From: Branchiostoma floridae
Taxonomy: Eukaryota > Chordata > Leptocardii > Amphioxiformes > Branchiostomatidae
Direction: 5' to 3'
DNA: 64,000 nt
Assembly: GCF_000003815.2 (NCBI RefSeq)
Contig: NC_049984.1
Location: 508,320-572,319 of the forward strand
Shown: positions 35,701 through 47,700 of the stretch, in pieces
Layout of the letters: each line of letters opens with the position of its first letter
Position numbering within the stretch: position 1 is the stretch's first letter
Made by a program: the position numbers and the translations under genes
Notes under the pieces: generated by a model
Told to the model about the DNA's origin: nothing
The model's input: the letters and a program-made list of their open reading frames with translations, nothing else
Database searches by the model: none

Positions 35701-38700
35701 TTTTTTGCTAAAACGGGGAATTCCCATAATTTCCATTTATTCATTTTTCATCATCACAATGCGTTGAGGTGCATTGCCACACGTCCACTCAATCGAGTTG
35801 TAGATCAAACGGGTTCCATCACTTGCACATGATGACAGAGTACCTAAACAAATTCCAGGTACAGGTACACGGGTTTAGGTACAGGTCCGCACCTGCACCT
35901 GTACCTAAAAAGTTTAACCCAGTATATGCAAGTTAATCATGTAGCTAACTGGCTTTTCTGGTGATAAATTGTCATGTTTGCATGGGAAATTACATATTTG
36001 AATCTCAAAACAATTTCTTTGCAAGTTTTCTCATGTTTCAACTGCAAGATTATCAGCACTGTCATTGCTGACTTGGGATTTAGTTGTCCAGCAGTCTTAA
36101 AAAGTAGTGTTTGATAGTGATTTAGTTTGTTTAGGTACAGGTACAGGTACACAGATGTTTAGGTCCGGACCTGTACCTTAACAATTTTTTAGGTACGGTA
36201 CAGGTACGGGTATTTAGGCCGCAGCCCTATGACAGAGTGATGGCTTACGGTTCAGACACTTAGACATTGACGATAAATCGTATTTACCGGATAGTAGTGT
36301 TCATAAAGGTCCACGCAACCGCAGTCCGTCGGCTCGACACACTCCAGCCCACTCTGCATGTAGCCTGCATCGCACTCGCAGCCTTCTACACGGGGAAGGT
36401 CGCAGTCGTCCGGGGCGTCGGGGTTCACGCATGTCGCCGGGCAGGCGCTGATGTCATGGGAGTATGTGCTGTTTCCTGAACAATCCATAGCTGTCGAAAA
36501 TACAGAGTAAAATTAATCTGTTAACATGCAGGACTGCAAGCACATCTACAGGGGAAAACACATCATCGTCGTCCTTATCAACAGCAATCAAGTTGAACTT
36601 ATTCATTCATTATTCACAGCACAATGACACTGGGTTGCTTGCGGAAGCGTCTTCCCCATAGATCCTACAAACCCCTGAAACACAGAACACTTTTTTTTTT
36701 AATTTTGATAGATGTGAGATACTGGAACTTACGACACAACGTCGAATCTCGCCAGCTGAAGGCAGGCACGTCTGCGCCTATACAGGAGTCATAGTAAGCC
36801 TCCAGGTTGGCGCAAAGATACTCTCCCTCTGTAGCACACATGTCGAAGACGCAGTCTTCTCGGTAAGGTTCAGGGTCCACCGTGCCATGGCAGGATACAA
36901 ACGGGCCGCTCGTATCTGTCAGCACACCGCACGGGTCCGAGTACTCCGCGTCGCACGGTCCCTCGGTCGGGGGATCGCCCGTCGGGGAATCGCCATCACA
37001 GCTGAGGTGGGCAGAAATGTAACGTCATTATCATGAAAACACGCCGTAAAGAGACTGCGACAATACTCTCTCTTCTGATATTTGTTTGTTTGATTGTGCC
37101 TTTATTTTTTGTCTCAACGGTATTTGCTCAAAAAACATAGAAACGTGGTATAGTGCACATAATGTTTCATTATTTCCTTGCTAGTCAGGTCACACCTTCA
37201 TCCTAAAAAGCAAACTTTTGTGGCTGCAGAAGATTGGTGGTCATTGGTGAGACAAAGAGACGTTTAAGTAAGTACTATGAAAACATTTCAAAATTTGTCA
37301 ATGAGCAAAGCTAGCTTGACACAGAAAACCAGATGCCACCAGCCACCAACCAGTTAGCCACAAACCACCTGCACCTACAAAATGCAAACAAATACAAACT
37401 AGGCCCTCAATCTAATGAGGTTTGGCACTCAAAAGAAAAAGAGAAGAGAAAAAAAAATGTGACATGCGTTTCTAAGTCGGTCAGCCAGCTATTTCCGAAC
37501 TCGTTCCAGTTGGAGGCTTGAGTTCCATCCGGCATCTCGAAGTCGTCGCCCTTGATGCCGTTGTAGTTCCCGCACAGTCCGCACAGCTGGTTCTGGTAGT
37601 TACTCGGGATCTCCACCTGTAGAAGTGTTACAGCATTACAGGTAGTTACTCGGGATCTCCACCTGTAGGTTGTGTTACAGCATTACAGGTAGTTACTCGG
37701 GATCTCCACCTGTAGAAGTGTTACAGCATTACAGGTAGTTACTCGGGATCTCCACCTGTAGAAGTGTTACAGCATTACAGGTAGTTACTCGGGATCTCCA
37801 CCTGTAGACGTGTTACAGTATTACAGGTAGTTACTCGGGATCTCCACCTGTAGGTTGTGTTACAGCATTACAGGTAGTTACTCGGGATCTCCACCTGTAG
37901 AAGTGTTACAGCATTACAGGTAGTTACTCGGGATCTCCACCTGTAGGTTGTGTTACAGCATTACAGGTAGTTACTCGGGATCTCCACCTGTAGAAGTGTT
38001 GTATTGCAGTATTACAGGTAGTTACTCGGGATCTCCACCTGTAGGTTGTGTTACAGCATTACAGGTAGTTACTCGGGATCTCCACCTGTAGAAGTGTTAC
38101 AGCATTACAGGTAGTTACTCGGAATCTCCACCTGTAGAAGTGTTACAGCATTACAGGTAGTTACTCGGGATCTCCACCTATAGACGTGTTACAGTATTAC
38201 AGGTAGTTACTCGGGATCTCCACCTGTAGAAGTGTTACAGCATTACAGGTAGTTACTCGGGATCTCCACCTGTAGAAGTGTTGTATTGCAGTATTACAGG
38301 TAGTTACTCGGGATCTCCACCTGTAGAAGTGTTGTATTACAGCATTACAGGTAGTTACTCGGGATCTCCACCTGTAGAAGTGTTGTATTGCAGCATTACA
38401 GGTAGTTACTCGGGATCTCCACCTGTAGAAGTGTGGTATTGCAGCATTACAGGTAGTTACTCGGGATCTCCACCTGTAGAAGTGTTGTATTGCAGTATTA
38501 CAGGTAGTTACTCGGGATCTCCACCTGTAGAAGTGTTACAGCATTACAGGTAGTTACTCGGGATCTCCACCTGTAGAAGTGTTGTATTGCAGTATTACAG
38601 GTAGTTACTCGGGATCTCCACCTGTAGAAGTGTTGTATTGCAGCATTACAGGTAGTTACTCGGGATCTCCACCTGTAGAAGTGTGGTATTGCAGTATTAC

Positions 38701-44700: not shown

Positions 44701-47700
44701 CAGAAATAGGCCAGCTCTATTGCGGGTACTACGATCAAGAGTTTCACAGAAATAGGCCAGCTCTATTGCGGGTACTTACGATCAAGAGTTTCACAGAAAT
44801 AGGCCAGCTCTATTGCGGGTACTTACGATCAAGAGTTTCACAGAAATAGGCCAGCTCTATTGCGGGTACTACGATCAAGTGTTTCACAGAAATAGGCCAG
44901 CTCTATTGCGGGTACTTACGATCAAGAGTTTCACAGAAATAGGCCAGCTCTATTGCGGGTACTACGATCAGTTTCACAGAAATAGGCCAGCTCTATTGCG
45001 GGTACTACGATCAAGTGTTTCACAGAAATAGGCCAGCTCTATTGCGGGTACTTACGATCAAGAGTTTCACAGAAATAGGCCAGCTCTATTGCGGGTACTA
45101 CGATCAAGAGTTTCACAGAAATAGGCCAGCTCTATTGCGGGTACTACGATCAAGTGTTTCACAGAAATAGGCCAGCTCTATTGCGGGTACTTACGATCAA
45201 GAGTTCACAGAAATAGGCCAGCTCTATTGCGGGTACTACGATCAAGAGTTTAACAGAAATAGGCCAGCTCTATTGCGGGTACTACGATCAAGTGTTTCAC
45301 AGAAATAGGCCAGCTCTATTGCGGGTACTTACGATCAAGAGTTTCACAGAAATAGGCCAGCTCTATTGCGGGTACTACGATCAAGAGTTTAACAGAAATA
45401 GGCCAGCTCTATTGCGGGTACTACGATCAAGTGTTTCACAGAAATAGGCCAGCTCTATTGCGGGTACTTACGATCAAGAGTTTCACAGAAATAGGCCAGC
45501 TCTATTGCGGGTACTTACGATCAAGAGTTTCACAGAAATAGGCCAGCTCTATTGCGGGTACTTACGATCAAGAGTTTCACAGAAATAGGCCAGCTCTATT
45601 GCGGGTACTACGATCAAGTGTTTCACAGAAATAGGCCAGCTCTATTGCGGGTACTTACGATCAAGAGTTTCACAGAAATAGGCCAGCTCTATTGCGGGTA
45701 CTACGATCAAGTGTTTCACAGAAATAGGCCAGCTCTATTGCGGGTACTTACGATCAAGAGTTTCACAGAAATAGGCCAGCTCTATTGCGGGTACTTACGA
45801 TCAAGAGTTTCACAGAAATAGGCCAGCTCTATTGTGGGTACTTACGATCAAGGGTTTCACAGAAATAGGCCAGCTCTATTGCAGGTACTACGATCAAGAG
45901 TTTCACAGAAATAGGCCAGCTCTATTGCAGGTACTACGATCAAGAGTTTCACAGAAATAGGCCAGCTCTATTGCAGGTACTTACGATCAAGAGTTTCACA
46001 GAAATAGGCCAGCTCTATTGCGGGTACTACGATCAAGAGTTTCACAGAAATAGGCCAGCTCTATTGCAGGTACTTACGATCAAGGGTTTCACAGAAATAG
46101 GCCAGCTCTATTGCGGGTACTACGATCAAGAGTTTCACAGAAATAGGCCAGCTCTATTGCGGGTACTTACGATCAAGAGTTTCACAGAAATAGGCCAGCT
46201 CTATTGCAGGTACTTACGATCAAGGGTTTCACAGAAATAGGCCAGCTCTATTGCGGGTACTTACGATCAAGGGTTTCACAGAAATAGGCCAGCTCTATTG
46301 CGGCAAGATTGCGGGTACTACGATCAAGAGTTTCACAGAAATAGGCCAGCTCTACTGCAGGTACTTACGATCAAGGGTTTCACAGATATAGGAAAGCTGA
46401 GGGAGGTCACAAGGATAATCCCTCCACTGGTTTGCGAACTCCGGGGTGGAAGCTAAGTCTGCCTCGATGACAACGCAGTCAGCTTCACCGGGCGCATCGT
46501 TGGGTTCGTCTTGTGCCCAGTTGTCGAATGTCACAGAGTCCCCATCTATAAACTTGTGTGTATCCTCTACTTCTGTGTCTGTGATCCCAATCCAGGCGGC
46601 CCAATTGCCGTTGATGCCGTTCCGCAATCCCACGATGAAGTCATCGATAGCTTGGTCTTTTGGCTGAGCTAACCTTCCATTCTGAGCCACGCACCTTGCT
46701 TGTGCTTGGGCGAATGTAAGTGGAGGATCCTGTTGAGTTGGTGGAAAGTGGACGAAGGCTTTATAGCATCTGGCACCGTGGGCGCTCCAGCCAGATGGAC
46801 AGCCTGTGGGGGAGGAGAGAGGAAAGCAAGTCAAGGATCGTAGTCCAATATCGATGTTGAAGTAAATATTAGGTAACATGCATACTCACGTGGGGTTTCG
46901 ATAAGTAATAAAAACTATTAACTAAACAGCTTCATACATGGTGTGCGTGTGTGTGTGGGGGGGGGGGGGTATCTTGTCCCCTCGTGCCCTGAATATCGCA
47001 AACTAACAACACCGAAAACATGGCTTCTTTTAAATAATGAGCATGACCATGTGCATGGACATACTCCCTTCAACCAAGCATGTTATGAACATGGACTGGA
47101 CATACTCTCTTCAACCAAGCATGGCCATGTGCATGGACTGGACATACTCTCTTCAACCAAGCAAGTTATGAACATGGACTGGACTTGACTGCGGTCCAGA
47201 CAACATCACTCCAAACCTTCTCCGACAGGTAGCTGACACCATATGTGCACCCCTCACCCGGCTATGTTGGGGGAAGCAGCAGAGAAGGCCTCCTGTTGGC
47301 TGTGGCTCAAGAGAGACGAGCAGAATTGGAGACCAGAGGGGCGAGGCGAGCAGTGAGTGGCCACCACTGCTGACCGGTCAGCACGAGGATGTAGCGGGAC
47401 AAGGTTGAAACATCCTGTGAATGCTGACTACCCGCCTGACGACGTCGGACCCCTCTGAGAACCAGAATCTCCCACCAAAGAAGGTGGGTGATTTCCACGC
47501 ATCTCGGATGTATTTAAAGAGCCTTGGTCAAGTTCCTTCTGGTTGGAAAGAAGCCAATGTAACCCCCATCCACAAATCCGGCAGTCGTCATCTCACCAAC
47601 AACTACAGGCCGATTTCCCTGCTCAACATCGTTCCGAAAGTGCTAGAGTCACTAGTCAACAAACATCTAATTAAACAAATCAATCCAGTATTGTCCCACC

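Follow-up and report, generated by a model that had tools for sequence, protein, structure and literature searches.

The stretch of DNA analysed here (the window) comprises 64,000 nucleotides of the amphioxus Branchiostoma floridae (RefSeq assembly GCF_000003815.2, contig NC_049984.1, positions 508,320 to 572,319), and two genes on its minus strand are treated here: a C-type-lectin/VWD mosaic gene (hereafter the VWD gene), whose modelled exons are named CTL, V1a to V1c, C8a, V2b, V2c and C8b, and PIGU. Six tandem arrays in the window are built from exon-intron junctions. In five of them the repeat unit spans the real boundary of a modelled exon lying beside the array; the sixth was recognised through a match to an annotated protein, and its exon was not found in the window. 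Minisatellite-like duplications of intron-exon boundaries have been described in amphioxus globin genes (Ebner et al. 2010, PMC3087553); according to the cited passages of that paper such duplications had been reported under the name 'mirages' in Adh3 of B. floridae and B. lanceolatum, and further loci are known. The arrays of the window are amphioxus mirages, further cases of the published phenomenon, several of them in one small stretch.

Junction arrays of the VWD gene

All exons and junction arrays described below lie on the minus strand. The C-type lectin exon, CTL (46369-46803; Pfam Lectin_C, 2.4e-15), has its donor after GATC at 46369 and its frame is open into V1a (42698-42942). V1b, the VWD1 exon (41534-41671), starts at an acceptor edge at 41671 and is followed by V1c (41064-41197), C8a (40114-40409), V2b (39604-39741), the VWD2 exon V2c (37469-37616, acceptor edge 37616) and C8b (36733-37001), which has a Pfam C8 match and a TIL domain (Pfam) in open frame near it. 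When the authentic sites are used, the reading frame is open through CTL-V1a-V1b-V1c-C8a, where Pfam finds Lectin_C, VWD and C8, and through V2b-V2c, where it finds VWD. The best match for this gene among the matches listed (seven proteins) is P0001, a zonadhesin-like protein of B. belcheri, and the edges at V1a|V1b, V1b|V1c and V2b|V2c are supported because P0001 aligns across these joins without a gap. A first VWD2 exon was expected and was not seen; a 100-base gap of Ns lies at that place. The 3' end of V2c is uncertain, since 37440-37480 is without a clear GT donor; a GC donor, a shifted donor or a site broken in this haplotype are possible.

An earlier, sequence-only reading of this DNA had proposed three arrays in the VWD gene, and Tandem Repeats Finder (TRF) recovers all three, with units that are true exon-intron junctions. 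The longest, at the CTL donor edge (44387-46392; TRF 47 bp x 42.9), counts 43 units, of which the one at 46369 is the authentic junction, in agreement with the proposed copy number; the exonic part of the unit is 24 bp, so the earlier figure of about 27 exon bases was slightly long. Exon and unit consensus (hand-made) are identical at 22 of these 24 positions and at 18 of 20 in the intronic part. Units are mostly 46-47 bp, and only 1 of the 42 spacings is divisible by 3 (one further 48-bp spacing is an artefact of cutting the first unit). The donor reads GTAAGT in 24/43 units with the authentic one included (23/42 decoys), and GTAGTA, after the loss of one base, in 19/43 (19/42 decoys).

The array at the V2c acceptor edge (37595-38741; TRF 46/51 bp x 23.8) likewise bears out its proposed size, with 24 units including the authentic acceptor at 37616. 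The first 22 exon bases are unchanged in all but one of the 24 units, and the acceptor is TACAG in 23 and TATAG in one, AG being kept in 24/24. Spacings here are 46, 47 and 51 bp, and 9 of 23 are divisible by 3; the claim that the units are not multiples of 3 is thus right in part. At V1b (41658-41810; TRF 38 bp x 4.1, 62% matches) there are three units including the authentic one, and the acceptor edge is copied twice more, as had been read, giving decoy acceptors at 41709 and 41784 besides the authentic 41671 (spacings 38 and 75 bp).

In these arrays a real splice site has been multiplied in the intron that adjoins its true exon, and many of the decoys are intact, in support of the sequence-only reading. 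The match scores of the CTL donor, V2c acceptor and V1b acceptor edges range from 100 to 112, while the best of 200 dinucleotide shuffles per edge reached 26-30, which excludes chance resemblance between the array units and the exon edges.

Three other arrays of the region (39017-39427, 42111-42502 and 43493-43701) were considered as further mirages and set aside, as they contain no modelled exon edge. The first is made of 31-bp and 19-bp minisatellites and adjoins an open stretch without Pfam match; an unrecognised exon edge could be present beside it.

Junction arrays of PIGU

PIGU has its exons within 1355-4178, and the five exons, when joined, give a Pfam PIG-U match of 3.3e-68. Residues 279-452 of the amphioxus protein P0128 (from a B. 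floridae hybrid) are identical to the window gene (174/174), and the joins b|c, c|d and d|e agree with this protein; P0129, a PIGU of B. floridae x B. belcheri, differs from the window gene at three of those positions.

Three further junction arrays, absent from the earlier claims, are found at this second gene. The first, at the donor edge of exon a (exon 4030-4178; array 3716-4043), has nine units including the authentic one, spaced by 39 bp with a first spacing of 34, and the donor is kept in 9/9. The second is a duplication of the acceptor edge of exon d (exon 1781-1923; duplication 1877-2175), with a unit of ~131 bp in three copies including the authentic one; besides the authentic acceptor at 1923 there are decoys at 2054 and 2183, of which one encodes the exon-edge peptide exactly (15 residues) and the other a diverged form. 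Two smaller copies were also detected: a degenerate copy of the exon a acceptor edge at 4277-4320 (score 47 against a shuffle maximum of 30), and a copy of the first bases of exon c, encoding RDHPMFHLH, at 3075-3101, nearly all of which falls on the exonic side of the edge.

The third array (4750-5623; TRF 47 bp x 19) encodes TMEWLYSTRGFV, then GTAAGTAG, in 14 of its 19 units, and GTAAGT follows in 19/19. The encoded peptide matches residues 267-278 of P0128, SMEWLYSTRGFV, where the next residues, MLAPDLTPN, open PIGU exon b. Given this match immediately before exon b, the array looks like the donor edge of the exon upstream of b in the annotated PIGU protein. Its parent exon was not found in the 64-kb window. 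The place of that exon before b is occupied by exon a, with 42% identity between the two over 43 residues, and residues 1-235 of P0128 and P0129 gave best E-values of 0.34 and 0.16 against the window, which we read as absence of the 5' PIGU exons. The arrangement at 4030-5645 could reflect a break in the assembly, an incomplete copy of the gene or an alternative exon.

Consequences of splicing at the decoys

The decoys of five arrays were read in the frame of their gene; the 19 units of 4750-5623 were left out, as their parent exon is missing. An in-frame stop was met 1-123 nt from the junction for 77/77 decoys tested, while the authentic sites give no in-frame stop. The stop lies 14 nt past the exon end for all 42 CTL donor decoys, 24 nt past the join for all 23 V2c acceptor decoys and at 1 nt for all eight donor decoys of PIGU exon a; the two V1b acceptor decoys reach it at 48 and 123 nt and the two decoys of PIGU exon d at 50 and 89 nt. 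Since every decoy tested runs into a stop, decoy use would truncate the protein and not add sequence to it, and as judged from these frames it would amount to loss of function rather than useful partial exons. The partial exons that the sequence-only reading had expected are therefore unlikely to be useful, and published work points the same way: in the cited passages of Ebner et al., Adh3 data and reverse transcription PCR on globin genes suggest that regular splicing is undisturbed by mirages (PMC3087553).

Such uniform stops would also be expected if the arrays regulated their gene, with copy number tuning the use of poison decoys and nonsense-mediated decay setting the mRNA level, and many decoys do look usable (GTAAGT is whole in 23/42 at CTL and AG is present in 23/23 at V2c). 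However, the units of one array share their frame context, so that the 77 decoys amount to about five independent cases, one per array, and are no proof of selection; a stop would in any case be probable whatever the frame in which a unit is read (by estimate, half or more per 47-bp unit). Moreover, the donor consensus is lost in 19/42 CTL decoys, so intact decoys are not uniformly kept, and the published globin RT-PCR suggests regular splicing. We consider a regulatory role improbable.

Placement of the arrays relative to exon edges

Each of 25 exon edges was compared with the surrounding +-2500 bp, with modelled exons masked and 200 dinucleotide shuffles as reference. The EGF exons described below were omitted because whole-exon duplication would confound edge tests, and the rest of the window for want of exon models. 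Seven of the 25 edges scored above all shuffles: the acceptor and the donor of PIGU exon a, the acceptors of PIGU exons c and d, the CTL donor and the acceptors of V1b and V2c. Weaker signals came from the V1c acceptor (p=0.01) and the donor of PIGU exon c (p=0.05), and for the remaining 16 p was above 0.05. The V1c match is to the V2c array and was assigned to what is probably homology between the two VWD exons.

The positions of the arrays were then compared, post hoc, with a model in which each of the 12 tandem families of the two genes is collapsed to one unit and placed at random. The test omitted nested TRF rows in 1877-2175, the 18-bp row at 4061-4103 and the TG microsatellite at 39897-40063, and the V1b family was set at 137 bp, above its real spacings, which raises the expectation. 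Without counting the 4750-5623 array as spanning, 5/12 families span an edge where 0.99 are expected (P=5e-4; PIGU 2/4, P=0.07; VWD gene 3/8, P=0.003). When this array is counted and one edge is added, 6/12 span an edge against 1.05 expected (P=3e-5), with 3/4 in PIGU (0.61 expected, P=0.006) and 3/8 in the VWD gene (0.44 expected, P=0.002).

This excess in two unrelated genes, together with the seven edges that have significant copies nearby, is what would be seen if splice junctions were hot spots, that is, if a process linked to junctions (replication/transcription conflict, or breaks at tracts beside GT or AG) seeded the arrays. Against this, the gene spans were picked after the arrays had been seen, so that the finding is itself selected, and PIGU without the 4750-5623 array does not depart clearly from random placement. 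Sliding windows outside the TRF arrays (score >=30) gave 0/23 at edges, 0/315 in introns and 3/129 in exons for the VWD gene, and 3/13, 19/175 (overlapping windows) and 2/29, respectively, for PIGU; the edge excess outside arrays is thus nil in the first gene and weak in the second, which counts against a strong hot-spot claim. We regard junction-linked seeding as possible but on balance doubtful.

Other features of the window

On the plus strand, 47421-48920 encodes a non-LTR retrotransposon reverse transcriptase in two open stretches split by a stop; the open reading frame at 47913-48920 shares 82% identity with a protein of B. belcheri and 96% with another protein. Minisatellites of 41 bp and of similar unit flank the element at 47056-47184 and 49169-51156. 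On the minus strand, a 33-bp x 5.5 repeat in open frame (NEERLGNSDD repeats) occupies 63498-63998 and is followed by sequence containing Cys and His.

Discussion

Taking the anatomy of the arrays, their position on the intron side, the stop consequences and, in one array, the exon-like variants near the exon, all of which are observed, we infer a mechanism of birth, the use of the proximal site and near-neutrality. The resulting explanation, which we consider very probable, is that these mirages come from duplication across an exon-intron boundary, were amplified by minisatellite turnover and are tolerated since the exon-proximal site is used. Birth would be a short tandem duplication whose breakpoints fall on either side of the boundary, one exonic and one intronic; the copy joined to the full exon would retain the original site and frame, and the extra edge copies would end up in the intron, where slippage or unequal exchange could amplify and homogenise them. 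By exon definition the spliceosome would pick the exon-proximal site, and the extra copies would be spliced out. Should a decoy be used, a stop codon would follow within 123 nt and the mRNA would be expected to be degraded.

The CTL array bears on the amplification step. Its authentic unit differs from the array consensus, and variants that array units have in common with the true exon (CCC for CTC; CCTGCA for CCCGCA) are confined to units 2-11 of 42 (permutation p ~1e-4), consistent with an array that grew and was homogenised outward from an authentic edge that stayed in place. A distinct boundary unit with a homogenised interior was seen in this array, the one of the six examined for it. An imperfect direct repeat (9/10) marks the limits of the same array, with AGCTTTCCTA in the exon and AGCGTTCCTA at its outermost intronic end; agreement at 9 or more of 10 positions there would arise by chance with a probability of ~0.0013 per locus, for a pair that was first noticed by eye. 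This repeat fits slippage between short direct repeats.

The ordered point variants of the CTL units also speak against the arrays being false expansions or collapses in the draft, as does the occurrence of the same type of structure at independent published loci (cited passages of PMC3087553 and PMC3902484). In favour of such an artefact, the window contains three 100-base N gaps, one of them beside the VWD2 exons, the 5' PIGU exons were not found in it, and Ebner et al. mention one mirage aberrantly assembled in the draft genome (PMC3087553). An assembly artefact nevertheless seems to us very improbable as an account of the arrays.

Several points weigh against duplication, turnover and tolerance as a complete account. 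When the flanks of the six arrays were inspected by eye, boundary direct repeats were clear at CTL only (1/6), and the use of the exon-proximal site is in this window something that we infer. The CTL|V1a join is not covered by P0001 or by any homologue seen. The junction excess over random placement is such that plain tolerance is insufficient to explain it fully: if selection removes exon-internal seeds, we would, by our own estimate, expect ~1.5 of the 12 families to span an edge.

The arrays have the anatomy of published mirages. Mirage units of 10 to 160 bp, affecting 5' and 3' edges, are reported (Ebner et al., PMC3087553), and the six arrays, with units of 38 to ~131 bp, lie inside this range and include both boundary types, donor (CTL, PIGU exon a, 4750-5623) and acceptor (V1b, V2c, PIGU exon d). 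The mirages described for Adh3, BflGb6, BflGb9, PGBD5 and TnC are the same kind of boundary-spanning tandem repeat with AG or GT in many units, PGBD5 having been added as a mirage locus, with TnC cited, in PMC3902484; in the window, too, splice signals are kept in many, not all, units. Length and somatic instability of mirages are described as well (PMC3087553), and in amphioxus VCBP3 whole exons or parts of exons, in some cases with canonical splice sites, lie in introns (PMC2632668, as cited). The VWD gene and PIGU are not among the loci named in the cited passages, and the window differs from those loci in having arrays of up to 43 units, several per gene in two genes within 64 kb, one of them (4750-5623) without a parent exon found nearby. 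The sequence-only reading knew of no named mechanism for such arrays; the phenomenon does have a name, whereas its mechanism is indeed termed unclear by Ebner et al. (PMC3087553).

Other systems multiply splice sites in related ways. In the Rogers model, intron gain through tandem duplication of AG/GT proto-splice sites (as presented in PMC3087553), there are likewise duplicated junctions, candidate sites and exon fragments, but the window arrays show no sign of a recruited new intron. Closer at hand, an array at 29024-32703 in the same window (350 bp x 10.5) has an EGF-like exon in each unit (Pfam EGF, 6e-11, one copy scanned), with the donor GTAAGTT in 9/11 units inspected and TTAGTTC at the same place in 2/11. 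It, too, is a tandem duplication with splice sites inside the unit; its unit, however, holds a whole exon and can stay coding, whereas mirage units hold only an edge. In human, the 6-16 gene, which is IFI6, reportedly has a minisatellite supplying multiple splice donor sites, to go by the title of a 1995 paper by Turri, Cuin and Porter; by that title alone, its donors are repeated like those of the window arrays and are used in a transcript, whereas none of the window decoys is known to be used.

Six junction arrays at two unrelated genes in one 64-kb window suggest that more than a few amphioxus genes carry mirages; no genome-wide count of them was among the matches listed in our literature searches. 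Gene predictors could mis-assign exon edges at such arrays. Two questions become testable with existing genomes, namely whether minisatellites are drawn to junctions and by what means the spliceosome passes over dozens of near-perfect decoys. Minisatellites of amphioxus may arise preferentially at splice junctions, in which case a good part of those in genes would be copies of exon edges; for us this is a tentative idea and less likely true than not true. Mirages have been proposed as a possible source of new introns (Ebner et al., PMC3087553), and if minisatellites did arise preferentially at junctions, arrays at exon edges would keep supplying cryptic splice sites and new introns.

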